Shown: positions 1,762 to 42,947 of the stretch, in pieces
Position numbering within the stretch: position 1 is the first letter of the stretch
Layout: the number at the start of each line of letters is the position of its first letter
Source of the DNA: a virus
Reading direction: 5' to 3' (one strand)
DNA: 44,199 nucleotides
Virus record (IMG/VR): IMGVR_UViG_3300010885_038652
Location: 1 to 44,199 of that record
Program-made: the position numbers and the translations under genes
The notes under the pieces: model-generated
Databases searched by the model: none
Seen by the model: only the letters and a program-made list of their open reading frames with translations
Told to the model about the DNA's origin: nothing

Positions 1762-2087
1762 TTACCAAAGAAGATTTCCAAAAAGAGGCTGCACGTCGGA
1801 TAGAACGCGCCAAAGACGAAATCGGGAAGTTCCAGAGCGAGCTCTATCGCAGCCCCATCGGGGCGTTGCGGTGGCCGTCTGACGCCCTTCGTGCCGCTGC
1901 TACTTTGAGCGTGTGGCAGGATATGTTCAACATCGACCCCGCGACCGCCCTGACTATGGCGAGACGGTACGCGATGGGGAAGATCGAGCCGTCGAGTTCA
2001 CCCTCCCACGACGAGTTCGAAGAATACAAGCGTCGTCAATGGGCTGACCTGCACGACTTCATCGAGGCGGGCTCGAGACGGCCCTGA
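1758..2087 (+). CDS. Hypothetical protein (109 aa)
   Basis: It starts with ATGA overlapping the previous stop, the last gene of the leading + strand cluster. The product is soluble, mixed-charge and probably helical: an N-terminal amphipathic region (KEAARRIERAKDEIGKFQ) and a central segment WPSDALRAAATLSVWQDMFN. No motif recognised. Its 3' end overlaps the convergent gene on the other strand by 29 bases, so the two transcripts are complementary there. Confidence 0.55.
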   Translation: MITKEDFQKEAARRIERAKDEIGKFQSELYRSPIGALRWPSDALRAAATLSVWQDMFNIDPATALTMARRYAMGKIEPSSSPSHDEFEEYKRRQWADLHDFIEAGSRRP

Positions 2088-3516
2088 CCGAGAAGAAGAA
2101 CAGTTGCACGAGGCGCGTGAAATCCTCGAAGCCCTCGTAACTAGACGCCGAATGAATCAGGCTCGCGTCCCATATCACGAGCCTGTTATAAACCCCGCCG
2201 ATGCGGTCGACTAACTCCCAATCGTCGCCGTGCGTCAGGTTGTACGGCGAATATACGTCGTTCTGCACCGCCAACGGGTCGGCAAAACGACCGCGCTCCA
2301 TCGGGTGACTCGGGGGCCGACGACAACCGTGAGTGCGGTTGCGCCAGAATGACGTTCCGGCAGATACCGGAGCATTCGGGGTCAGATAGACCGCAGCCGC
2401 GTAGTCCTGCGTGTCCGAGTGCCAAACGAGCGGGTCGCTGGACTTGGTCTGCTGAAAGCAACCGTTCGCGGGCTGGTTAAGCCAATCCGTAATCTCGACG
2501 CCGCCCAAATGGGCCTGCAAGTGCTCACGCAGGTAGGGCCAGATGTAGCGTTCTCGCGTCCGCAAGCCTTTGTAATGGCGCAAGTCCTCGTGATAGTCCT
2601 GCTCCAAGGCAAAAGCCCGCACCGCATCGGGGTCCTTGTAGAACCCGTCCACGACCTTCAAGTGAGGGATCGTCGATGCGTTTCTTGCCCCGACGTCGCC
2701 CGTCCCTTCGGGAACCCACATGCGGAGTCCGAAGCCCATGTCGAGCAAGTGCTTCGTCCGACCGTCCGAGCATTTGCCGACTTCAAGTATGCGCCGTTCA
2801 GAACCTAACCAATAAACCACTGGTTTACCTGCTTTGTGGGGTATGAATTCGGCGTAGTCGGTCCATGGCTTTATGGGCACGACCTCGATCTTGAACTTGT
2901 GCAACAACGGCGGGAGGCTAACTTGGTCCCGAATTGACTCCTTGTTCACGGCTTCCCACCAAGCCTCGCCAAGCGACCGCAACGACGACTTGCGGTGCTT
3001 ACGGTAAATCAGCCCGCATGCCCATAATCCGGCCTTCTTCGGCCAGCCGCGCTGTGTGTATAACGCCCGCTGCGCCGCGAAATCCTGATCGGCGAAGTCT
3101 TTACCTGACTTCTTGATATTCTCAAGGGCCGTCAGTTCGTCGTAGATGCAGTTCCGGCCTTCTTCGGCCACACGATCCATATGAGGTATGGCGGCAAATA
3201 CGGCCTTCTGCTCTCGCACATGCTTGAGCAGCCTGTCGCCCTTCAGGACCATGCTGCCGTCTATCCAGATGGACTCGCGGACGTAGGGCGAAAGCCATTT
3301 GTGGGGGAGCAACTTCGGCCCCTTGGAGCGCAATCGCGGGCTAAGACCGTTGAGGCCCACGCGCACGATTCTCCAAGTGTTTGATTTCAACGGCTGGTCC
3401 GTGAAGCAGACGTACTTGACGCCTTTGATTTTCGGTTGCTCTTTCAGACTGTCGTAAGGTCCGAAAATCGCCGTGTAGACGACGCACAACCGAGATCGGA
3501 ATCTCTTACTTGCCAT
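2059..3516 (-). CDS. Fusion: DUF616-like glycosyltransferase and 2OG-Fe(II)-oxygenase-like domain
   Basis: A protein of 485 residues with two recognisable halves. Residues about 10-225 match the DUF616 (TOD1/MUCI70-like) glycosyltransferase pattern: VVYTAIFGPYD at 12-22, YVCFTD at 35-40, SIWIDGSMV at 82-90 and a PHMDR...CIYDE segment at 111-126. Residues about 285-485 resemble a DUF6445-type 2-oxoglutarate/Fe(II) oxygenase fold: VVDGFYKDPDAVRAFAL, an HxD pair (H366, D368), a distal H455 in LVIWDASLIHSA, and R468 before LVQLFFF. If active, one polypeptide could glycosylate and hydroxylate a common target such as a modified base, surface glycan or virion protein. The substrate is unknown. It overlaps the FmdB-like gene upstream by 11 bases. 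Confidence 0.7.
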   Translation of the reverse strand: MASKRFRSRLCVVYTAIFGPYDSLKEQPKIKGVKYVCFTDQPLKSNTWRIVRVGLNGLSPRLRSKGPKLLPHKWLSPYVRESIWIDGSMVLKGDRLLKHVREQKAVFAAIPHMDRVAEEGRNCIYDELTALENIKKSGKDFADQDFAAQRALYTQRGWPKKAGLWACGLIYRKHRKSSLRSLGEAWWEAVNKESIRDQVSLPPLLHKFKIEVVPIKPWTDYAEFIPHKAGKPVVYWLGSERRILEVGKCSDGRTKHLLDMGFGLRMWVPEGTGDVGARNASTIPHLKVVDGFYKDPDAVRAFALEQDYHEDLRHYKGLRTRERYIWPYLREHLQAHLGGVEITDWLNQPANGCFQQTKSSDPLVWHSDTQDYAAAVYLTPNAPVSAGTSFWRNRTHGCRRPPSHPMERGRFADPLAVQNDVYSPYNLTHGDDWELVDRIGGVYNRLVIWDASLIHSASSYEGFEDFTRLVQLFFFSVRAVSSPPR

Positions 3517-3706
3517 ACCCGTCAGAATACCAACCGCCGCCCTTGAGGGCGAAGCTGGACCGCGAAATCAATCGCTCGGTTTCCCCGCCGCAAAAATGCT
3601 TGTGGTCTTCGAGCAATCTCTCGCAAGCGGGATTGGACGAGTCGAGCCGCTGAACCTTATCGAACTTGTGCCCGCACTTCAGGCACCTGTACTCATACAT
3701 CGGCAT
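3506..3706 (-). CDS. FmdB-family zinc-ribbon protein
   Basis: 66 residues beginning MPMYEYRCLKCGHKFDKVQ and ending in a SSFALKGGGWYSDGYGK-type tail. Both ends are the signature of the FmdB putative regulatory protein family: N-terminal CxxCG knuckle, a second cysteine region here reduced to CERLLEDHKHFCGG, then ISRSSF.LKGGGWY. Family members are small zinc proteins of unproven regulatory role. It lies 3 bases after the upstream gene and overlaps the downstream fusion gene by 11 bases, consistent with one operon. Confidence 0.85.
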   Translation of the reverse strand: MPMYEYRCLKCGHKFDKVQRLDSSNPACERLLEDHKHFCGGETERLISRSSFALKGGGWYSDGYGK

Positions 3707-3709
3707 AGG

Positions 3710-4378
3710 TCATTCCCACTCGTTCGCCCATTGGCCGATTTCGATTTGCACGTCTTTCGTGTAGCTCACGGGGTTGATATTGTTCTTCACAACCCACAGG
3801 AACTTGTCGGTGATTTTGACCCCGTTGTACGTCCACGAACAACGATGCGCTATGCCGCCCTCGAAAGGTTCTTGCACTTCAAGACCGAGGCTCTTTTCGA
3901 CCTTGTCGAAGTATTCGGGCTTGAACGAGGCCACGACGTACTCGGGCTTCAAGAACAAGCCCAACTGCCCCAACAAGGGCACCCCGTTTTCCAGCAAGTG
4001 ACTTCGCACGTTGCCTTCCAACTTGCTGAAGATTTCGCTCGTCATGATCGGGCTCAGGTCCGTGTGAAGGGCCTGACTATATCCGGTCTTCGTGAACGAT
4101 GCCCCCAACTGATTGAGCACCGTTTCCCAAGACGAGAACCACTTATCGAAGCGGTACTTGTTGCAGTATCTCTCCATCGCCGCCGCGTCTCGGGGCTGCG
4201 CCAATGTCGCAAGCGGGCCAGGGTTGACCCCGACCGATATGACCTTGGTTTCCGAGTTCTGGTAGAGGTTGCGGTCGCCGAACCAAGGTATCGGGCAAGA
4301 ATTCTCTGGGATGCAATCAGGGCTCACGCTGCGCGCCCTGTGCCATTCGTTCCAAAACGCGGCGGTCAGCTCTTCCAC
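3710..4378 (-). CDS. Possible uracil-DNA-glycosylase-superfamily-like protein
   Basis: 222 residues from a GTG start, with GGGGGA about 6 bases upstream spanning the previous gene's TAA. The segment IPWFGDRN...KVISVGVNPGP at about residues 30-55 resembles the conserved opening of uracil-DNA-glycosylase-like domains, where a hydrophobic strand leads into a GxNPS/GP loop. The family's second signature (HPS-like loop near the C-terminus) is not clearly present: the corresponding region reads NNINPVSYTK. It may therefore be an inactive or divergent member, or a different fold. A DNA-repair or base-excision role is inference only. Confidence 0.4.
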   Translation of the reverse strand: MEELTAAFWNEWHRARSVSPDCIPENSCPIPWFGDRNLYQNSETKVISVGVNPGPLATLAQPRDAAAMERYCNKYRFDKWFSSWETVLNQLGASFTKTGYSQALHTDLSPIMTSEIFSKLEGNVRSHLLENGVPLLGQLGLFLKPEYVVASFKPEYFDKVEKSLGLEVQEPFEGGIAHRCSWTYNGVKITDKFLWVVKNNINPVSYTKDVQIEIGQWANEWE

Positions 4379-4654
4379 TTAGTCGTCCCCCATAATCTTC
4401 TTCTCTAGGACCCTCAGAATCAAAATCAGAATGACGGCGATCACGCCGAACCAGAACATCACGACCAGCAGGGCAACGTCCGCACCGCCACCGAGCATCC
4501 AGAACAGGATCGCGGCGATGATCCCCATCCACGCCATCCAGCTCAGGACCTTCGCCATGAGCTTGCCCGCGTACCAGCCGACACCCGCTCCTGCGGCGAT
4601 TCCGAGAAGCGAGGCTATGCTGTCCTCACGGTCGTCGTCATCGTATCTGCCCAC
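4379..4654 (-). CDS. Small membrane protein (91 aa)
   Basis: Starts at GTG 4654 with GAGGTGA 3 bases before it. An acidic N-terminus (GRYDDDDRED) precedes a glycine-rich helix (LLGIAAGAGVGWYAGKLM) and two strongly hydrophobic spans (MAWMGIIAAILFWML and VALLVVMFWFGVIAVILILIL), ending in KKIMGDD. Two or three transmembrane helices are expected in the inner membrane. It is paired with another membrane gene directly upstream, so the two may act together. No holin, Rz or antiporter motif recognised. Confidence 0.7.
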   Translation of the reverse strand: MGRYDDDDREDSIASLLGIAAGAGVGWYAGKLMAKVLSWMAWMGIIAAILFWMLGGGADVALLVVMFWFGVIAVILILILRVLEKKIMGDD

Positions 4655-4657
4655 GGT

Positions 4658-4921
4658 TCACCTCTTCATTTGAAAGAAGTAGATGTAAAGTACCTTGAAG
4701 AAATACCAGACAACCCCCAAAATCCAGAAAAGCAGCATGCCGAGCAGCAGACCGATAGAATACCCGACCCAAGACCAAGGGGTTCCGAGAATCAGCGCGC
4801 TCAGAATCGAAAAGCCGATGATCCAAAAACAGATGGTCGTGTAAATCTCGCCCTTTAGGGCACCGAGGGCGTAGGCGTTGCCTATGTCGGTTCCTTGTTT
4901 AATAAAGTCTCGGAGTTTCAC
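4658..4921 (-). CDS. Small membrane protein (87 aa)
   Basis: Begins at GTG 4921 with GGGAGG upstream. The N-terminal 25 residues are soluble (KLRDFIKQGTDIGNAYALGA), then come three hydrophobic spans: TICFWIIGFSILSALIL, VGYSIGLLLGMLLFWIL and VVWYFFKVLYIYFF, ending in MKR. It is the first gene of the leftward cluster and faces the kinase-like gene across 62 bases. Together with the next membrane gene it might form a small membrane complex; function unknown. Confidence 0.7.
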   Translation of the reverse strand: MKLRDFIKQGTDIGNAYALGALKGEIYTTICFWIIGFSILSALILGTPWSWVGYSIGLLLGMLLFWILGVVWYFFKVLYIYFFQMKR

Positions 4922-4983
4922 CCGACCTCCCTTTCGGTAGGTATTTTATATCGCGTATCGTTAGACTTTACGGGAGAACGTAA

Positions 4984-6102
4984 ATGGAACCTAAGGCTCG
5001 TTCCGCGATTATCCGACTCGCTTATTCTAACCCCAATCTCCGTTCCCATCTGCTCCCCTTGTTGAGCATGGGGATCGAAAAAAACCTGTTAAAGATCGCC
5101 AAGGAGCAACTTGTAAAAACGGCGGCTCCACTCAACGACCCGAAATATCTTCGCTACCAAGCGGTATTCATCATGGGTGCGGGCGGCTCGGGCAAGGGTT
5201 ACTATTCGCACCGATACCTAAAATATATGCCCGGCGCGGGTTCTAAGGGCATTAGCCGCGAAGAATATACGGATTACGCAGAACGCGGGAAGCAAGACCC
5301 GACGAAGGACACGAAGGCGCGCCTTTTGTCTAATATTGACTTCACCAAAGCGACTAAAATTCTAAAAGAACGGGGTTTCGATATTAAAATCGACGATAAT
5401 CCTTCGAAAGCCAGCATACCTTTTCGGTTATATTCATACGACAATAAAGGTGCGGAGCGTTTAATACCTAAATCGGAATATAATGAACTTCCGATGAAAA
5501 TTCGTAACGTAGTCGAGGATATCGAAAATATCATCTTCAGCGAGGCCAAGCACGAAATCCCTTCCTATTGGAGACAGGTCAATCCTGACTTGTATAAGGA
5601 AGAGTTGCCCGGTTACGCTAAAGAAGAACCCGGCTATGTTCACGAAATGTCCTCGGTAATGTCTAAGGCTTATTTTGAAGCGGCCTTAGAAACCGGCGAC
5701 CCGTTAATCGTGGACGGAACGGGCGTCAATAGCAAGAAGATGATTGAGCAGTTCAATCTCGCTAAAAAGGCGGGGTATCGCGTATCCCTCGTGTATGTTT
5801 GGGTTCCTTTGACGGTTAATCAAATTCGTAATGCGACCCGTCCTCGTAATGTTGATCCTGACCAGATCACCATTCAATGGAAACTTACGCAAGCCAGCTA
5901 CGACGCGATTAAGAGCAAAGCGGATAAGGCCAAGAGGATCGATAATCGGGATACCCCGAGGGATATCCCGCTGTACGAGAAAAACAAAGATAAGATTAAC
6001 AACTTTATCGCTCAAAAGACGGGCTATATTACCCTATACGGTCTTATCGCTAATGAATCCCCTGAAGAACTCAGGGATTACGGTGCCCTACTATCTAATT
6101 AA
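4984..6102 (+). CDS. Zeta-toxin-like P-loop kinase
   Basis: 372 residues; GGGAG lies 8 bases before the ATG. A Walker A motif GAGGSGKG occupies 65-72 after a hydrophobic strand (AVFIMG), and VDGTGVN at 243-249 matches the second strand of zeta-toxin/AAA-type kinases. A lysine- and arginine-rich C-terminal third could form the lid. The family phosphorylates small molecules or nucleotides; the target here is unknown. The N-terminus carries a helix RSAIIRLAYSNPNLR followed by LLPLL that I believe recurs on unrelated phage proteins. The gene is isolated on its strand and its codons are more AT-rich than those of its neighbours (many ATA, AAA and TAT), suggesting a separate origin. Confidence 0.65.
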   Translation: MEPKARSAIIRLAYSNPNLRSHLLPLLSMGIEKNLLKIAKEQLVKTAAPLNDPKYLRYQAVFIMGAGGSGKGYYSHRYLKYMPGAGSKGISREEYTDYAERGKQDPTKDTKARLLSNIDFTKATKILKERGFDIKIDDNPSKASIPFRLYSYDNKGAERLIPKSEYNELPMKIRNVVEDIENIIFSEAKHEIPSYWRQVNPDLYKEELPGYAKEEPGYVHEMSSVMSKAYFEAALETGDPLIVDGTGVNSKKMIEQFNLAKKAGYRVSLVYVWVPLTVNQIRNATRPRNVDPDQITIQWKLTQASYDAIKSKADKAKRIDNRDTPRDIPLYEKNKDKINNFIAQKTGYITLYGLIANESPEELRDYGALLSN

Positions 6103-7938: not shown

Positions 7939-8319
7939 TTAATCGTCCCCTTTCAGTTTGCCCTTTAAGACGGCGATGCCGGCGTCCACGACGTCGCGCA
8001 TACTCACGCCGCGAAATATAATCATCCCCCCGCCCATCGCCGCTCGAAACTTCGCGGCGGCGTTTTGTTGCTCGGGCGTCAACGGCTCGGGCACGGCCAA
8101 CTCGGTGCGGTTGGCTTCGGACATTGCTTCGGCCATTGCGTCCCGCATTTCGTCGGCGAGGGCCGTAAAATGCGGGCGGTCGGTTTCAAGGTCAATCGGC
8201 GTAATCTGCGTGCTGCCCGCGCTCACACGCAGCAAATAGGACCCCATCGGGAAAGAGTCGTATCGAACGGTCTCACGGACGGGAACGTAACGACGCCCCC
8301 GCTTCTCGTAGAGCGTCAT
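7939..8319 (-). CDS. Conserved phage hypothetical protein (126 aa)
   Basis: Starts MTLYEKRGRRYVPVRE and continues with a short beta segment (GSYLLRVSAGST), then an alanine- and glutamate-rich helix (ALADEMRDAMAEAMSEA). From memory, an opening YEKxGRRYxPV followed by a ...G.HLL.V..G segment and an A-rich helix is seen in uncharacterised proteins of many tailed phages. The C-terminal third has GGGMIIFRGVSMRDVVDAG. No catalytic motif. It overlaps the next upstream gene by 4 bases (GTGA/ATGA type), so it belongs to the operon controlled from the 8664-8767 repeat. Confidence 0.6.
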   Translation of the reverse strand: MTLYEKRGRRYVPVRETVRYDSFPMGSYLLRVSAGSTQITPIDLETDRPHFTALADEMRDAMAEAMSEANRTELAVPEPLTPEQQNAAAKFRAAMGGGMIIFRGVSMRDVVDAGIAVLKGKLKGDD

Positions 8320-8600
8320 TCGTTCCCCTTGTTTTCTAGGCTGGTGGCGGGCTGGACAGAAACCACCAAACCCGCTCGATACTTCGACCGCATATACGAG
8401 TCAAAATGATCCCATAGGGCGAGCACTAAAGCGCGAGCCTCACCCGAGTCCAGCCCCGCTGAGTAATCGCCTAAAGCGGTTTCGGTGTCGGTGTAAACGA
8501 CTTCCCGTAACCCACCGTCATCATAGCGGCTGACAACGTGCCAACCGTTGGCTACTCGGCGGATCCAAACGCCGTCGGGCGGCGCAAATTTTTCATCCAT
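8316..8600 (-). CDS. Hypothetical protein (94 aa)
   Basis: ATG at 8600 overlaps the end of a tiny leader ORF (ATGGATGA), which suggests translational coupling to it. The product begins DEKFAPPDGVWIRRVANGWHV and contains a DSGEARALVLALWDHFDSY helix. It looks like a small soluble globular protein. No family recognised. Second gene of the leftward operon. Confidence 0.55.
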   Translation of the reverse strand: MDEKFAPPDGVWIRRVANGWHVVSRYDDGGLREVVYTDTETALGDYSAGLDSGEARALVLALWDHFDSYMRSKYRAGLVVSVQPATSLENKGNE

Positions 8601-8652
8601 TGTTTACCCCGTAATATTCGGAATAGTCCGTATCATCGAAGTCTTCGTCCAT
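8593..8652 (-). CDS. Acidic 19-residue leader ORF
   Basis: ATG at 8652 is preceded by AGGAGGG at an 8-base spacing, the strongest ribosome site in this operon. It reads MDEDFDDTDYSEYYGVNNG then TGA, overlapping the ATG of the next gene by 8 bases. It may be a leader peptide that loads ribosomes for the operon by coupling, or a functional micropeptide with strong negative charge. The same frame stays open for 96 codons further upstream, through the inverted repeat, but that part has no good start and lies over the control region. Confidence 0.5.
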   Translation of the reverse strand: MDEDFDDTDYSEYYGVNNG

Positions 8653-8663
8653 ATTTACGTCCC

Positions 8664-8767
8664 TCCTTACACCTTCCAGACGGTCGGGCGACCCCGAAAA
8701 AACCGAGAAAGTGAACGCCGATTTCCGGTTTTTTCGGGGCGGGGCAACCGTCTGGAAGGTGTAAGGA
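8664..8767. repeat. Concentric inverted repeat between divergent operons
   Basis: Two nested pairs of perfect arms share one axis at about 8715.5. The outer arms are 21 nt each (8664-8684 and 8747-8767; right arm begins ACCGTCTGGAAGG). The inner arms are 14 nt each (8692-8705 and 8726-8739; CGGTTTTTTCGGGG on the right). The 7-base gaps between inner and outer arms do not match each other, and the central 20 bases are not symmetric. Each divergent operon therefore has the same upstream module, CGGTTTTTTCGGGG-N7-ACCGTCTGGAAGGTGTAAGGA. No ordinary -35/-10 pair is visible. Likely a mirrored promoter or operator; less likely a long RNA hairpin or an origin element. Confidence 0.85.
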
Positions 8768-8791
8768 CAACCAACGCAGGAGACGACGAAC

Positions 8792-9130
8792 ATGACTAAC
8801 ACGAACACCGAGAACCAGAACGACGAGATGCATTTGCGGTTGTGGGCGGCGGTCGCCGCTGCCCAAGGTCGCGGCGACGCGACGCACCGCCCCGAGAACC
8901 GAACTGCGTTTGCGATGATCCTATACATGATGGGGATCAATCAGGGGATGCGAATGTTTACCCCTGACACCCCTGCCCGCCGAGCCTATTACAAGGCTCA
9001 GTGTGAGGAGTTCATCGCGCGTCTCGATGCGCTGACCCCCACGCCCGACGCGCATCCGTGCGGCTGGTCCGTCGAAGACGAGCACAACGCCCATTACGCG
9101 GGTGCGTGTGCCTGCTACGGTTACGGCTGA
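8792..9130 (+). CDS. Hypothetical protein (112 aa)
   Basis: First gene of the rightward accessory operon, with CAGGAG 11 bases before the ATG and the inverted-repeat module just upstream. A polar N-terminus (TNTNTENQNDE) precedes a helical region (AMILYMMGINQGMRMFTPDT) and a C-terminal cysteine-containing tail (HPCGWSVEDEHN, then ACACYGYG). No family recognised. Its TGA overlaps the next ATG (TGATG). Confidence 0.6.
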   Translation: MTNTNTENQNDEMHLRLWAAVAAAQGRGDATHRPENRTAFAMILYMMGINQGMRMFTPDTPARRAYYKAQCEEFIARLDALTPTPDAHPCGWSVEDEHNAHYAGACACYGYG

Positions 9131-9495
9131 TGGAAGATCACGACGACCGCTTGAGGCGGCAGACCGATTGGTATCAGCAACGGTTCAACGCACTTCGGGC
9201 GTGGGTAAACCGTGAGGTTCGCCCGCTGTCCGAAGAAGCCGCGAATCGTTATTTCGCAATCGTGGCAAACGGCTCCCCCGCTCCCCATGAACAGGCCGAT
9301 TGGCGTGACACGATGCACGGGCTCACGCTGCGTGCCGAGTCCGCTGAACGCGAACGGGACTCCGCATTAAAGCACGCACAAGAATTGCGTGCGGCGTTGG
9401 AAGGCTACCACAAGGGGGCAGATTCCATCCCGTATGCTCAATGGTCGCGTGAACAGCATGCCGCCGACATCGCGCTAAAAAGGACGATGCCATGA
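9130..9495 (+). CDS. Hypothetical coiled-coil protein (121 aa)
   Basis: Starts at the ATG in TGATG, overlapping the upstream stop by one base. The central part (LTLRAESAERERDSALKHAQ, then ELRAALEGYHKG) is a long amphipathic helix expected to form a coiled coil. The start (HDDRLRRQTDWYQQRFNALR) is also helical. The C-terminus ends in a QWSREQHAADIALKR segment. This style of small helical protein is typical of phage early/accessory operons; no specific role can be read. Confidence 0.6.
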   Translation: MEDHDDRLRRQTDWYQQRFNALRAWVNREVRPLSEEAANRYFAIVANGSPAPHEQADWRDTMHGLTLRAESAERERDSALKHAQELRAALEGYHKGADSIPYAQWSREQHAADIALKRTMP

Positions 9496-9959
9496 AACTC
9501 TCGGACGTTCCCAAGCATATCACGGAACTAAACCCGCCGTGGTTCCATCATGTGCTCAGTCGAGTCCACGGGGAGCATTCGTCCAACGCGGACATCAAGC
9601 CGCTGTTCCATCTCGATTACTACGACGGGCCGCTGTCGGGCATTTTCAAGTGCTTCGACCGTGTGTTCTATGCGAAGGTCGTCTACGCCGACGACCGCAA
9701 ATATTGGGTCGCTTGGGAACTAACCCCCGAGCAGGCCGAGATTGAACTCGCCAATTACGCCCTGTTCCAAAAGCACGTCGGCACGCACACGGACTATTCC
9801 ATCGACGAAGAGGGCGAGGTCAGCCGTCAAATCGACGCGACTCGACCGCAAGCCGAATGGGACTTGTTCTACAAGGCCGAGAAGAAGCGGATCGACTACG
9901 ATGCTATCGAAGCCACGGACTTCTTCGGCGTGTTGCTGAACCCTTTTCGCAGTTGGTGA
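9492..9959 (+). CDS. Hypothetical protein (155 aa)
   Basis: ATG at 9492 overlaps the upstream TGA by 4 bases. The centre has a compact aromatic region, DYYDGPLSGIFKCFDRVFYA then KVVYADDRKYWVAWELTPEQ, which reads as a small beta-rich domain. It is followed by helical and charged segments. From memory, a DGPLSG.......YA......RRYWV..L..E.. pattern occurs in other uncharacterised phage proteins, so this is a conserved phage protein of unknown role. Confidence 0.6.
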   Translation: MKLSDVPKHITELNPPWFHHVLSRVHGEHSSNADIKPLFHLDYYDGPLSGIFKCFDRVFYAKVVYADDRKYWVAWELTPEQAEIELANYALFQKHVGTHTDYSIDEEGEVSRQIDATRPQAEWDLFYKAEKKRIDYDAIEATDFFGVLLNPFRSW

Positions 9960-38137: not shown

Positions 38138-38931
38138 GATCCCTTGTTACCACCACCTAGTACCACCTTAGCCCCCACCTTGATTACACGCTCGGGGACC
38201 GCCCAAGGGTCAGGTTGCTCCGGTTGAGCCGATGGGGGAGTACCGCCGCCGATCATAATGCCACCGCTCGGCATCCTCGTATTCTGCGAAGGGGGCAGAA
38301 ACGGAGCCGGACGAGAATGAGCCACGGGCACGGGGGGCACAGGCTCAGGGGCACGGGCAAGTTTCGCGGCAATGTCCTGAACGTGCTTGCAGGATTTCTT
38401 GAAGGTGAAAGCCTTACACGAGCAAGACCACTTATTATCCGTCGTGCGCGTGACCTCGTATGTATCCCCCGCGTCACCCCGCACGTTCCAACGATCCGCA
38501 ATCTGCGGCTCGGGAGGCGCAATTACAGGCTCAGGGATAACGGGCTCGGGTTCAGGGACGACTACGGGTTCGGGGGCCTTCACGAATCCGGTAGGGGCCA
38601 GACCGACGAGTTCACGCGCCGCGTCTAAGACCTCTACGGGCGAAGCCACGGACCAATCGCCCTTGCGCTCGCTGATTTCTAACGCCAACGCCCGCTGAAT
38701 CATATCCTTGAAATCAGGTAGCCCTGACCCCAAGCCCTCGGGCGCGAAGTTGGGATTGCGTAGCAGGATTTCTTCCTGCGTCAGCATCCTCGACATCCAA
38801 AGGGATTGACCCGTGCGCGAGTTCTTGCAGCCCGAATTCTGGCAGGCAGCGCAAAAAGTCTGCTTAAACTGCTCGGGCGGCATCTTTTGATGGTCGCCCG
38901 AATAGCATTGGTTGAAAAGGTCAGCCAACAT
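38134..38931 (-). CDS. SWIM zinc-finger protein
   Basis: 265 residues. An N-terminal C27xxC30....C35 cluster (CAACQNSGCKNS) comes first. A Pro/Glu/Val-rich linker at 110-142 (EPVVVPEPEPVIPEPVIAPP) separates it from a SWIM motif, C170-x-C172-x8-C181-x-H183 (WSCSCKAFTFKKSCKHVQ). SWIM domains bind zinc and take part in protein-protein or protein-DNA contacts. A Pro/Gly-rich C-terminal tail ends in KVVLGGGNKGS. No catalytic domain is attached, so it may be an adaptor. It overlaps the thymidine kinase gene by 11 bases. Confidence 0.75.
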   Translation of the reverse strand: MLADLFNQCYSGDHQKMPPEQFKQTFCAACQNSGCKNSRTGQSLWMSRMLTQEEILLRNPNFAPEGLGSGLPDFKDMIQRALALEISERKGDWSVASPVEVLDAARELVGLAPTGFVKAPEPVVVPEPEPVIPEPVIAPPEPQIADRWNVRGDAGDTYEVTRTTDNKWSCSCKAFTFKKSCKHVQDIAAKLARAPEPVPPVPVAHSRPAPFLPPSQNTRMPSGGIMIGGGTPPSAQPEQPDPWAVPERVIKVGAKVVLGGGNKGS

Positions 38932-39448
38932 TGCGCGACCAGCAAGTCCGGCATCGCGCCTCGTAGACGCCGTGTGAACCCACTTCGATTAATTCGGTAT
39001 TGCGGGTCAGCTTGTAAGTCCTGTTTGCCCTCTCGCCGCACTTGCACTTGGCCGTGATCTTCTTCACGGAGTCCGCAATCGCCATAAGATGCGGCATCGG
39101 GCCAAACGGTTGACCCTTGTAGTCAAGGTCCAGACCGGAACAAATCACGCGAGTACCGCGATCCGCGAGCACGTTGACCACAAGCACCAGCGCATCGGGC
39201 AAGAACTGACATTCGTCAATGCCCACGATCTTCATGCCCCTAGACCGCTCCAAAATCGAATCTAGGCCGGATGAAGAAGTCGAGATGCTGATAGCGGGGA
39301 AGGTAACGCCGTCGTGGGTTGCGATGTGCGTGTCGTGGTAACGGTTGTCGATACTTGGCTTGAAGGCCACCGCCTCCATACCGCTCAGACGACGCACGAG
39401 TTCCGTCGTCTTGCCCGCGTACATGCACCCTGCGATGACTTCGATCAT
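38921..39448 (-). CDS. tdk: Thymidine kinase
   Basis: 175 residues, near the usual length of bacterial and phage type II thymidine kinases (180-200). The P-loop GCMYAGKT lies at 7-14, and GIDECQFLPD at 76-85 is the Walker B with catalytic glutamate. LDLDYKGQPFG forms the flexible lasso, with a C-terminal zinc site in CKCGERANRTYKLT and CRTCW. SHGVYEARC carries the thymidine-binding region. It makes dTMP for phage DNA synthesis by salvage. The frame is clean; start ATG at 39448. Confidence 0.95.
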   Translation of the reverse strand: MIEVIAGCMYAGKTTELVRRLSGMEAVAFKPSIDNRYHDTHIATHDGVTFPAISISTSSSGLDSILERSRGMKIVGIDECQFLPDALVLVVNVLADRGTRVICSGLDLDYKGQPFGPMPHLMAIADSVKKITAKCKCGERANRTYKLTRNTELIEVGSHGVYEARCRTCWSRNVG

Positions 39449-40114: not shown

Positions 40115-40675
40115 TCAAAAAGGCTTTCTCGCCACCACAATCGGTTCCCAAGCGGGCTTGAGGGCCGTGCCCCAACCAGACCATTGTTGCGCGATTTCCC
40201 GCTCAGCACCCGCTTGCTTGTCAAGAGCCTTGCTGACATCCATAGACTTCGGGAAGCCTGAGCCGTAAGTCCAAGCGTGAATCTCGAAGTCCACGAAACC
40301 CGCTTCACGCATGGCCTTCGCCATTCGGTGAAAGGTCCGAGTGCCCGAGAAGGCTTTGATTACCCCGTCGGGCTTTAGGACTCGAAGGCATTGACCCCAA
40401 AGTTCAACGGAGAACGCGATCCCAGAACCGTCCCACTCTTTACCCATGAAGCCGCGTTTGGTCGTCAAGGGTGATTCGACGGGTAAAGGGCGATTGTCCC
40501 CATTGACGCCGACGCGATGCCGACCATAAGGGCTATCCGAAGTAGGGGGAGGCTTCGTCCGATTTGAGCTTGTAAGCTCGTATGGAGGGTCTGAAACGAT
40601 ATAGTCCACGGAGCAGTCGGCAAGGTCTTGAAGTTTGACGAGGCTGTTCCCGAGAATCAGTCGGACGGTGTTCAT
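40115..40675 (-). CDS. DNA methyltransferase, N-terminal piece (motif IV, DPPY)
   Basis: 186 residues; ATG overlaps the upstream gene's stop (ATGA). DPPY at 29-32 is the catalytic motif IV of N6-adenine/N4-cytosine methyltransferases. Next come ELWGQCLRVLKPDGVIKAFS, YGSGFPKSMDVSKALDKQ and WGTALKPAWEPIVVARKPF, where it stops. This is the order of the first part of beta-class enzymes, but motif I (DPF.GSG) is absent. Motif I lies in the gene immediately upstream in the same operon, and the middle region in the one before that. The three probably make one enzyme from separate chains. Confidence 0.75.
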   Translation of the reverse strand: MNTVRLILGNSLVKLQDLADCSVDYIVSDPPYELTSSNRTKPPPTSDSPYGRHRVGVNGDNRPLPVESPLTTKRGFMGKEWDGSGIAFSVELWGQCLRVLKPDGVIKAFSGTRTFHRMAKAMREAGFVDFEIHAWTYGSGFPKSMDVSKALDKQAGAEREIAQQWSGWGTALKPAWEPIVVARKPF

Positions 40676-42507
40676 TCATCAAGCCCAAAGAAATCGTCGA
40701 AACCAACCTCACGCGGTTTCGCGGTCGTGTCACAATCAGACTCGATAAGCGCACGGCCTTCGATAATGCTTCGCTCGCTATTCCAATGCCTCACACGAGC
40801 GTCCGCAATCGGCAGGTACTCAGGCATAAGCTCGATGCCCGTGAAGTTCATGCGGGCGTTCAAGCAAGCGATACCCGTCGTCCCCGAACCCAAAAATGGG
40901 TCTACAACGTGAGAGCCTTCGGGGAAACCCTCAAGGCACCACTCCATAATCTCAATAGGCTTCACGGTGTTGTGCGACATGCCCACAGCCGTTTGGAACG
41001 TCGGGTTTCCAGATACAGTCAAGTTCCAAACGTCACCCGTGTAAGGCACGGGTTTCACCGATTGAATGTAACGCAAAACGTACCTGATGCCCTCATATTC
41101 CAGAAAAGTAGGACGGCTAGGCTTACGGGCACGGCTTTGGTCTTGGTTGCGGCTGTAAAGGTATAGCTGATACGATGGAAGGGTTTGCTTGAACTTGCGC
41201 CCATCAATCGAACCGGGCTCTGCGTCAAAACGAAACAGGTTCGACTTGTACCCCACACTCTCCGCGAGATAAGCAATCGAAGAGGCCAGATCAGGGGATA
41301 CGGTTTTGGCTTGAATGTGGCCTCTCACCACACCACCGTCACCCGCAAGGTAGCCTTCCAAAAAGGCTTTGCGGTTGCTCAAGGGCAACCCCCAAAACAT
41401 AGGGTGCAGGGACTTAGTGGAAGCACCCTTACCAATGAGGGTGATGAAGTCGGCACCTACGTCACGGTCGAACGCGACTACTTGCCAAGAACGACTATTC
41501 TTCTTGTCGTACACGCTGACGCTCGCGCCACGACCTTCGAAGTAGTCTTTGATCCGACTTATCAGGTGTTCATTGCGCGCACCAACCGTGAAAGAAGGGT
41601 ATCCACCCTCTTTCCCGTGGCTTGCCTTATGGATCACGCCCTCTGCGGCGTAGAACCCGCAGAAAAACCAAAACTCGTCCGGACGATTTAACTCAGGGCT
41701 AGATTTAGGCTCACTCAAGATAGGCGTGAGCGTGTAGTCGCCTTTCTTAAGGTCTTTCGCCTCTACCCACTCCATCGAACCATTGAAAAGAACTCCCCCT
41801 CTCGTGCGCGTGGGGCGCAGCACCAAGAATGGGTGATTGTCGCTGGCAAGGGTCGTGTAGTTCGTCCCCGCAACCCCAATCTCAAACAAATCCGGACTCG
41901 TATAAGGATGATGCGACACACAATCAACGGCATGGAAACTGCCGTCAGCGGTGTAAACCCTATCACCCGCAACGATTTGATTGATGGGGGAATACCCTTT
42001 ATCCGTCAACACCAATGCTTCGGGATGCAGGCAGGGATGCGAGTTCCCACGCGCAGACGATGACCTATTGCGAGGATTATTCGAACCTGGAGCGTCGGGG
42101 TCACGATCTTCTTCCCAACGCCTTTCTTCCAAATCGTGAGTGCCAGCTTCACGCTCAGAAGTCGCGGCCTTTGCCGTGTATGAGAACTTGCTTTCAGCCG
42201 TCGCCACGAAAATCGAGTCACGGACTTCAAAGCCGCTGTCCTCGGCGATGCACACGCAATCCGAACCCGTAGGGTCTACGTCGTCCGCTGATGCGATGAG
42301 CAGATGCCCACCTGGTTTCAAGACCCGTAGTGCCTCGGCTTGCCAAGCGTCACCGACGCCGCGAGTAACGAGCATCCCATGAGCCGTCGAGTCGCCGTGC
42401 CCCGCCCAATCAAAGGTCAAAGGGTCGTCGATTCGCAGGACGTTCAAGTCCGGCACGGGGGTAGAAATCAGCTTCGTCAGGTAATCCCAAAGATTAACCG
42501 CCGTCAT
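40672..42507 (-). CDS. DNA methyltransferase, motif I piece, interrupted by an intein
   Basis: 611 residues, of which 159-513 are an intein; the spliced product would be 256 residues. The extein has LRIDDPLTFDWAGHGD where motif IV would be, EALRVLKPGGHLLIASADD at 58-76, and AKAATSEREAG at 112-122. After splicing it has NSHP-TVKPIEIMEW and VVDPFLGSGTTGIACL (motif I, SAM binding). From memory a separate family with DDPMTFDW..., HPTVKP and DPFMGSGTTG occurs in phages and bacteria, so this piece is conserved alone. ATGA overlaps join it to both neighbours. A role in DNA modification (self-protection or regulation) is likely. Confidence 0.85.
   Translation of the reverse strand: MTAVNLWDYLTKLISTPVPDLNVLRIDDPLTFDWAGHGDSTAHGMLVTRGVGDAWQAEALRVLKPGGHLLIASADDVDPTGSDCVCIAEDSGFEVRDSIFVATAESKFSYTAKAATSEREAGTHDLEERRWEEDRDPDAPGSNNPRNRSSSARGNSHPCLHPEALVLTDKGYSPINQIVAGDRVYTADGSFHAVDCVSHHPYTSPDLFEIGVAGTNYTTLASDNHPFLVLRPTRTRGGVLFNGSMEWVEAKDLKKGDYTLTPILSEPKSSPELNRPDEFWFFCGFYAAEGVIHKASHGKEGGYPSFTVGARNEHLISRIKDYFEGRGASVSVYDKKNSRSWQVVAFDRDVGADFITLIGKGASTKSLHPMFWGLPLSNRKAFLEGYLAGDGGVVRGHIQAKTVSPDLASSIAYLAESVGYKSNLFRFDAEPGSIDGRKFKQTLPSYQLYLYSRNQDQSRARKPSRPTFLEYEGIRYVLRYIQSVKPVPYTGDVWNLTVSGNPTFQTAVGMSHNTVKPIEIMEWCLEGFPEGSHVVDPFLGSGTTGIACLNARMNFTGIELMPEYLPIADARVRHWNSERSIIEGRALIESDCDTTAKPREVGFDDFFGLDE
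40969..42033 (-). mobile_element. Intein with LAGLIDADG endonuclease domain
   Basis: 355 residues (159-513 of the host protein). It starts at Cys159 (CLHPEALVLTDKGY, block A), with block B at 219-225 (TLASDNH). Two LAGLIDADG-type helices lie at 283-291 (CGFYAAEGV) and 385-392 (GYLAGDGG). The C-terminal block is VWNLTVSGNPTFQT...SHN, ending in His512-Asn513, with Thr514 as the +1 residue. All splicing residues are present, so it should be active. It is inserted exactly in the conserved HP/TVKP motif of the methyltransferase. The domain is a homing endonuclease, so the element is potentially mobile. Confidence 0.9.
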
Positions 42508-42947
42508 TTGACCTCTACCTGCTGGAAGAATCGAGATGCCGATCCAAAAGAATCGTCGGATTTAGACATAGCACAATTGGTGGGATTGCCATTATTGTTG
42601 AATACGCGAGCCCCATCAGTACGAACCCAATTGTTACCTTTGCAGTCGGGGAAAACGCCTACGACTCGTTCGTCGCCGTCGTGAACCAAGTTCGCGGGCC
42701 ATCTTCCTGTGGGTTGCGTGTAATCTTCTGGTGACAGGGCACCGTCTACCCCGAATCTTCCAGCGGATTTGCCCGTTCGTTCATCACCAGGGAGCGGTTT
42801 ACGCATTTTCCCGCTGTAAGTCCCACCGTTCAAGTTGTCCGAAGTGACGATACGGCATCCGTCGATGTTCAACGCCCCGCAGCCGTGGGTTAGGGCGTTT
42901 TGTGCCACGGTGCCGACCACAGGCTTTCTCAGGACGTGGACGATCAC
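42504..42947 (-). CDS. DNA methyltransferase, middle (target-recognition-like) piece
   Basis: 147 residues; GTG overlaps the upstream TGA (GTGA). Residues 7-30, RKPVVGTVAQNALTHGCGAL then NIDGCRI, and 88-100, GRWPANLVHDGDE, then GSASRFFQQ, match the part of beta-class phage methyltransferases that normally follows ...KPAWEPIVVARKP and precedes the AKAS..ER and HPTVKP segments. Here it is a separate gene, first of the three. It has neither DPPY nor motif I and cannot be catalytic alone. The flanking RKP is duplicated between this piece and the N-terminal piece. Probably the target-recognition part. Confidence 0.75.
   Translation of the reverse strand: MIVHVLRKPVVGTVAQNALTHGCGALNIDGCRIVTSDNLNGGTYSGKMRKPLPGDERTGKSAGRFGVDGALSPEDYTQPTGRWPANLVHDGDERVVGVFPDCKGNNWVRTDGARVFNNNGNPTNCAMSKSDDSFGSASRFFQQVEVK

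Follow-up and report, generated by a model that had tools for sequence, protein, structure and literature searches.

Division of a phage beta-class amino-methyltransferase over three coupled genes, with its variable parts arrayed in tandem around one core in relatives

A 44-kb phage contig of the myovirus type, with baseplate J and baseplate wedge genes (an IMG/VR virus record of 44,199 nucleotides, here called the window), carries three coupled genes over which the parts of a single beta-class amino-methyltransferase are divided: A holds the catalytic half, B the presumed target-recognition region, and C the SAM-binding half, preceded by a degenerate second copy of the catalytic half (A'). 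Together, A, B and C probably represent a subunit-split phage DNA amino-methyltransferase, in which one C core would serve interchangeable A and B subunits and thus several specificities. The real novelty is the occurrence of tandem, variable A and B arrays around one C, a feature missed by the initial annotation of this DNA because the other genomes were out of its view.

Partition of the enzyme in the window

The three open reading frames lie at the coordinates first given, on the minus strand, and they are coupled by the 4-base overlaps noticed at that time. The features of the locus are the following:

42944..42947 (-): GTGA, 4-nt overlap between the stop of the gene upstream and the start of B
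42504..42947 (-): gene B, 147 aa, with GTG as start codon; target-recognition unit on a chain of its own, in which the conserved blocks HVLRKP..GTVAQNALTHGCGALNIDGCR, GRWPANLVHD and GSASRFF flank two variable segments
42504..42507 (-): ATGA, 4-nt overlap between the stop of B and the start of C
40672..42507 (-): gene C, 611 aa, or 256 aa minus the intein; degenerate catalytic half A' and SAM-binding half
42184..42507 (-): A', residues ~1-108 of C; N-terminal half that is degenerate and lacks DPPY
40969..42033 (-): intein at residues 159-513 of C; Cys1, ...HN/Thr+1, LAGLIDADG endonuclease domain
40873..40902 (-): SAM-binding motif I, DPFLGSGTTG, in C
40672..40675 (-): ATGA, 4-nt overlap between the stop of C and the start of A
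40115..40675 (-): gene A, 186 aa; catalytic half with motifs IV-VIII; C-terminal end ALKPAWEPIVVARKPF
40580..40591 (-): catalytic motif IV, DPPY, in A

The proposal that A, B and C correspond to the N-terminal, middle and C-terminal parts of a beta-class enzyme was corroborated by Pfam, by PHROG and by about 150 relatives. The Pfam search divided N6_N4_Mtase (PF01555), the family against which an alignment had been suggested, between A (profile positions 1-106, above the cut-off) and C (positions 101-219, 60 bits), and matched no family to B at E<=1. Among the PHROG profiles, phrog_67 was divided between A (121-245) and C (242-346), and phrog_3008 between B (2-81) and C (141-217). The three proteins aligned in series to ~150 IMG/VR relatives, nearly all of which consist of one chain, A-B-C. 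In these alignments, the last ~8 residues of A and the first ~8 of B cover the same RKP stretch, a duplication already pointed out, and the end of B overlaps the first SAM-half residues of C by ~4 residues (SASRFF / SKFSYTAK), so that both junctions, and not RKP alone, are repeated. Chance is excluded as the source of this three-way motif split.

As regards the organization expected of the beta class, the DPPY of motif IV in the N-terminal half was found in A, and motif I (DPFxGSG) in the C-terminal half was found in C. However, the motifs do not form the series IV-VIII, TRD, X-I-III on a single chain, but are spread over three ORFs of variable order, and A~B~A'~C on one chain is met only in a rare fusion (L189, described below). 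The methyltransferase matches were to N6_N4_Mtase and adenine-type models; no C5 methyltransferase domain was matched in the profile searches of the window proteins, and no MT-A70 domain in the Pfam search. On the basis of the DPPY motif, the modified base is most likely N6-adenine (m6A), m4C being the alternative.

The initial annotation had also ascribed to C a degenerate N-terminal half of its own, which was confirmed: residues 53-100 match single-chain enzymes in their catalytic half, with E values of about 1e-4 to 1e-9, and DPPY is missing. The sequence DDPL in C, considered as a degenerate DPPY, was dropped because the family alignment puts it in a poorly conserved stretch. Motif IV of A' may instead align with an HG..L..EP segment, and either alignment leaves no DPPY.

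In the mechanism that we propose, C would be a fixed core that binds SAM (motifs X, I-III) and carries an inactive A' remnant kept by selection, A would provide the catalytic half (DPPY, motifs IV-VIII) together with one variable loop, and B would provide the target-recognition segments. The subunits would assemble into an enzyme that methylates DNA, and the site recognized would differ from one A-B-C combination to the next, so that the phage DNA might be shielded from several restriction systems. Since A and B are separate and translationally coupled, and each combines a conserved scaffold with variable segments, several A and B units can accompany one C. The array of the window is minimal (one A, one B), and therefore the combinatorial part of the proposal rests on its relatives.

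Split systems and their arrays in other phages

Searches with the intein-free C, with an alignment of the C family and with a DNA pattern for the start of a free-standing B yielded 61 loci, which were reduced to 31 distinct split systems once near-identical C proteins had been removed. All members found are metagenomic or MAG contigs, ranging from ~41-kb phages (the genus of the window) to jumbo contigs of about 290-375 kb. A and B adjoin C in 30 of the 31 distinct systems, the remaining one being a contig-edge fragment, and the free-standing B units matched by the DNA pattern nearly always lie with A and C where the contig extends far enough. From one to six A and from one to seven B accompany each C, in variable order: B A B A A B A C in a 290-kb contig, A B B A B B C in a 227-kb contig, B B A B C in a 376-kb contig, C A A B A B B A A A B B B in a 126-kb contig, and A A B~C A B A B A B B B in a MAG contig. 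The permuted order B-C-A, initially taken as the core point, is consequently one arrangement among several and not a constant; given that the units are separate proteins and that their order is fluid, gene order carries no topological meaning. Misassembly, which had been named as a possible origin of the split and permuted genes, is ruled out by the recovery of 31 distinct systems in many independent assemblies.

The partition of motifs is maintained throughout the family: DPPY is present in 49 of 51 free A units, a motif-IV-like [DNS]PP[YFW] occurs in none of 27 C proteins, and motif I, as [DE]P[FY]xGSG, is kept in 25 of those 27. Most of the 61 unit junctions are exact 4-nt overlaps (44) and seven are 1-nt overlaps, with gaps at some others. 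The 4-nt overlaps between ORFs in different frames would also be expected if programmed frameshifting joined them into one B-C-A polypeptide. This seems very improbable, because ATGA and GTGA overlaps are the usual stop-restart coupling, each unit has its own start at a conserved place, the order differs between phages, and some junctions are gaps.

Two contigs, L084 (IMGVR_UViG_3300037042_003620) and L085 (IMGVR_UViG_3300020179_000065), share flanking genes with the window, and on this basis the three are taken as one genus. At this locus, each has a single C, accompanied by one A and one B in the window, by one A and three B in L085 (B B C A B) and by two A and seven B in L084 (B B B B B B C A A B). 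The C proteins of L084 and L085 are 85-87% identical to that of the window outside the intein.

B paralogues of the same genome were compared in eight arrays. The N-scaffold was 83-94% identical in seven of them, the exception being L155, where it is missing from one B, and the GRWPAN block was 75-100% identical, whereas identity fell to 1-46% in the second recognition segment and to 5-23% in the first (L155, 40%). A similar pattern was found in A: the two A paralogues of L084 share 97% identity in the core and 25% in one loop, and in other systems the corresponding values are 63-92% and 6-47%. Such variability in B and A suggests recognition modules mounted on a fixed scaffold. The second segment KGHKGYPNGPGGIWS... 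is joined to four different first segments in different phages, and the first-segment type DNLNGG..Y of the window B is also present in the single-chain enzymes L083 and L087. The window B (42504-42947) itself looks like a mosaic when compared with B units of L084 (6001-6324) and L085 (4066-4674), with a DNLNGG-type first segment as in an array B and a second half resembling the last B of these relatives.

Two readings of the arrays have to be weighed. In the first, C would exchange both the catalytic half A and the recognition unit B, so that n A and m B units would afford up to n x m specificities from one operon, A' acting as a placeholder that stabilizes C until A docks; we give this reading slightly less than an even chance. 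In the second, the split enzyme is real, and A and B work in fixed pairs, or a single A and a single B are in use at any moment, the extra copies being a reservoir for recombination. Recombination between B units, as in the second segment joined to different first segments, and the mosaic-like window B, which combines features of an array B and of the last B of its relatives, agree with this reading. However, all units appear to be translated, having their own start codons and mostly 4-nt overlaps, and the unequal numbers of A and B (2A/7B, 1A/3B) mean that one-to-one pairing would leave units unused. We consider it possible, but on balance doubtful.

Natural fusions were also identified. L189 (a 289-kb contig) encodes a 564-aa chain A~B~A'~C in addition to separate A units, and B~C fusions are present in L169, L190, L268 and L269. 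Their existence speaks for joint action of the parts within a single complex. L268, an Actinomycetota MAG contig, has two adjoining C units at 198-2742, a B~C and then a C, and is the only two-core system seen.

As for cultured phages, protein searches of INPHARED with C-type proteins gave only single-chain or other methyltransferases among the matches listed, a nucleotide search of INPHARED with the B-C region gave no match, and no split form was found there, those examined being single-chain except in Mycobacterium phage DRBy19 (L393). In this phage, A and B lie with large inserts in one ORF (2974-5520) and the SAM half forms a separate small ORF annotated as DNA methylase (5660-5911), a two-piece state that is perhaps a disruption. 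Two further candidates were rejected: Nostoc phage Nsp-JY10, in which three overlapping small genes resemble A-B-C, turned out to contain one ordinary 243-aa enzyme, and a pair of genes in Staphylococcus phage Twillingate consists of two adjoining paralogues.

Selection, predicted fold and origin

In comparisons within the genus of the window, dN/dS was 0.055-0.078 for C (window, L084 and L085), 0.072 for A' alone (against L085), 0.083 for the SAM half alone, 0.08 for A (window against each of L084 and L085) and 0.09 for an orthologous B pair; it rose to 0.26 for the more recent A pair inside L084 and up to 0.42 for B paralogues, all of these ratios being rough, as several pairs are near synonymous saturation. 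These ratios indicate that A, C and A' are under purifying selection. They imply that the pieces are not decaying and that A' has a function despite its missing catalytic motif. The loss of DPPY from A' and the fact that the pieces are shorter than the single-chain enzyme would fit a broken single-chain gene of which A, B and C are pseudogene fragments. Nevertheless, the pieces, A' included, evolve with dN/dS of 0.07-0.09, frames, DPPY and SAM motifs are nearly all intact over the 31 systems, and the arrays grow instead of decaying, so decay is hardly credible as an explanation.

Structure prediction for the naturally fused chain A~B~A'~C gave a pTM of 0.74 and a mean pLDDT of 72.8. Its best PDB matches were CcrM, M.BceJIV and M.RsrI, aligned over ~528 columns, with a target-normalized TM of up to 0.70 (M.BceJIV), whereas ~250-column alignments, which have room for A' and the SAM half only, reached a TM of 0.3-0.35. 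The ~528-column matches mean that, in the model, A is positioned relative to the SAM half as in a whole enzyme, B and A' lying in between. This was read, indirectly, as A, and not A', completing the SAM fold in the model, with the proviso that the underlying alignment included single-chain enzymes and was thus biased toward pairing the SAM half with A. The model of C alone was of low confidence (pLDDT 51), partly because it was built from few sequences, and was set aside.

These results bear on the idea that C is a regulatory pseudo-methyltransferase that folds with its own A', while A and B work with a host methyltransferase or with another one of the phage. A' and the SAM half do resemble a whole methyltransferase fold minus DPPY and the recognition region, and A' is under selection. 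Moreover, a catalytic/inactive pair is known in METTL3-METTL14, a eukaryotic RNA amino-methyltransferase with a catalytically dead homologous partner, which differs from the split system in that each chain is a complete fold. However, A lacks a SAM-binding half, nearly all C proteins retain an intact motif I, A~B~A'~C occurs as a natural fusion, and in the model of that fusion the SAM half is paired with A. A regulatory C is therefore unlikely, and the divided enzyme is the reading retained here.

In a quick, midpoint-rooted tree of the SAM half, from which the three intein-bearing C rows, including that of the window, were left out, 34 split rows fell on one side of one branch (SH-aLRT 94), with the single-chain enzymes opposite, and the split rows adjoined sampled single-chain rows. 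The split forms thus make up one clade and probably had one origin, from a single-chain enzyme, through duplication and complementary loss: one copy would have lost DPPY and the recognition region to become C, and others would have lost the SAM half to become A and B. This is compatible with the initial suggestion that C came from a second methyltransferase, as it probably descends from a second, full-length copy. A tandem of four related methyltransferase genes was observed in a 484-kb uncultured huge phage (LR756508.1, L348, 5390-10714): one has an intein-like insert and no recognition region, two are single-chain enzymes, and the fourth is a pseudo-enzyme that lacks DPPY and whose SAM motif is degenerate. 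It is plausible that this tandem, on a separate lineage, illustrates the kind of starting point from which a split could arise.

Known systems and mobile elements

The closest known enzymes are single-chain phage beta-class amino-methyltransferases (PF01555, PHROG 67), such as the 'DNA methylase' of Mycobacterium phages Marsha and Elite2014, which contain the same three parts, about 30-55% identical, but as one A-B-C polypeptide without A' and without arrays. Likewise, M.BceJIV, CcrM, M.RsrI and M.MboIIA provide the best structural and sequence matches, yet they are complete single chains. AquI, a naturally split m5C methyltransferase with alpha and beta subunits encoded by two adjacent genes, also has a DNA methyltransferase divided over adjacent genes, but it is a C5-cytosine enzyme in two parts, with no arrays and no inactive half. 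In the multispecific phage C5-methyltransferases of the M.SPRI type, one core serves several recognition modules, although within one chain and in the C5 family.

In type I restriction-modification systems, HsdM unites the catalytic and SAM parts in one complete chain, and HsdS carries two TRDs. The HsdM2HsdS enzyme has a separate specificity subunit subject to modular recombination (PMC3874165). B resembles HsdS in being a separate subunit with variable recognition segments between conserved scaffolds. Unlike in type I enzymes, the division runs through the catalytic fold, each C can be accompanied by many A and B, and B has no Pfam match; neither HsdM nor HsdS is recognizable, motif IV being missing from C and motif I from A.

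If confirmed, this would be, to our knowledge, the first DNA methyltransferase whose very catalytic fold is supplied as interchangeable pieces. Full-text searches of open-access papers turned up no description of a comparable system, and the portions of PMC7824862 that mention permuted jumbo-phage adenine methylases do not include a three-way split among them. If the proposal is correct, it would explain how a phage can cheaply cover many restriction specificities, it would make the evolution of new DNA specificities testable through small A/B gene swaps against one C, and it might offer a modular set of site-specific methylation tools. The system also looks like a case in which duplication and complementary loss turned one enzyme into an obligate multi-subunit machine.

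The intein of C is inserted at NSHP|TVKP, and once residues 159-513 are excised, NSHPTVKP is restored, the sequence found in L085, where the intein is absent. The element shows Cys1 and the HN and Thr+1 junctions, and its LAGLIDADG_3 match is above the cut-off; Hint_2 scored slightly below its own (26.0 against 28.4 bits), and the TIGR01445 match was weak. An intein was seen at this site in only three of the 31 systems (window, L084 and L185), the one in L084 being 91-92% identical to that of the window. The idea of a three-subunit, intein-controlled enzyme thus survives in its first half, the division over three coupled genes, but control by the intein is unsupported, since L085 has, in the same genus and locus, a C without it.

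At the same C site, L185, a 296-kb contig of a distant jumbo-size phage, has an intein (7995-9908) 55% identical to that of the window, which suggests homing between unrelated phages. Long intein-like inserts were also seen inside A in L173 (5498-7264) and L189 (4145-6064), the latter directly ahead of SGFPK, so that in some phages intein-like elements are found in both active-site halves. These inteins and inserts are best seen as optional mobile homing elements in conserved sites.

Elsewhere in the window, a thymidine kinase gene (PF00265, E 4e-44; 38921-39448, minus strand) lies downstream of the methyltransferase locus. A zeta-toxin/AAA kinase domain protein, polynucleotide-kinase-like (PF06414, E 5e-12), is encoded at 4984-6102 on the plus strand, and a single ORF at 2059-3516 on the minus strand combines a TOD1/MUCI70-like glycosyltransferase domain with a DUF6445/minor-coat-type domain.
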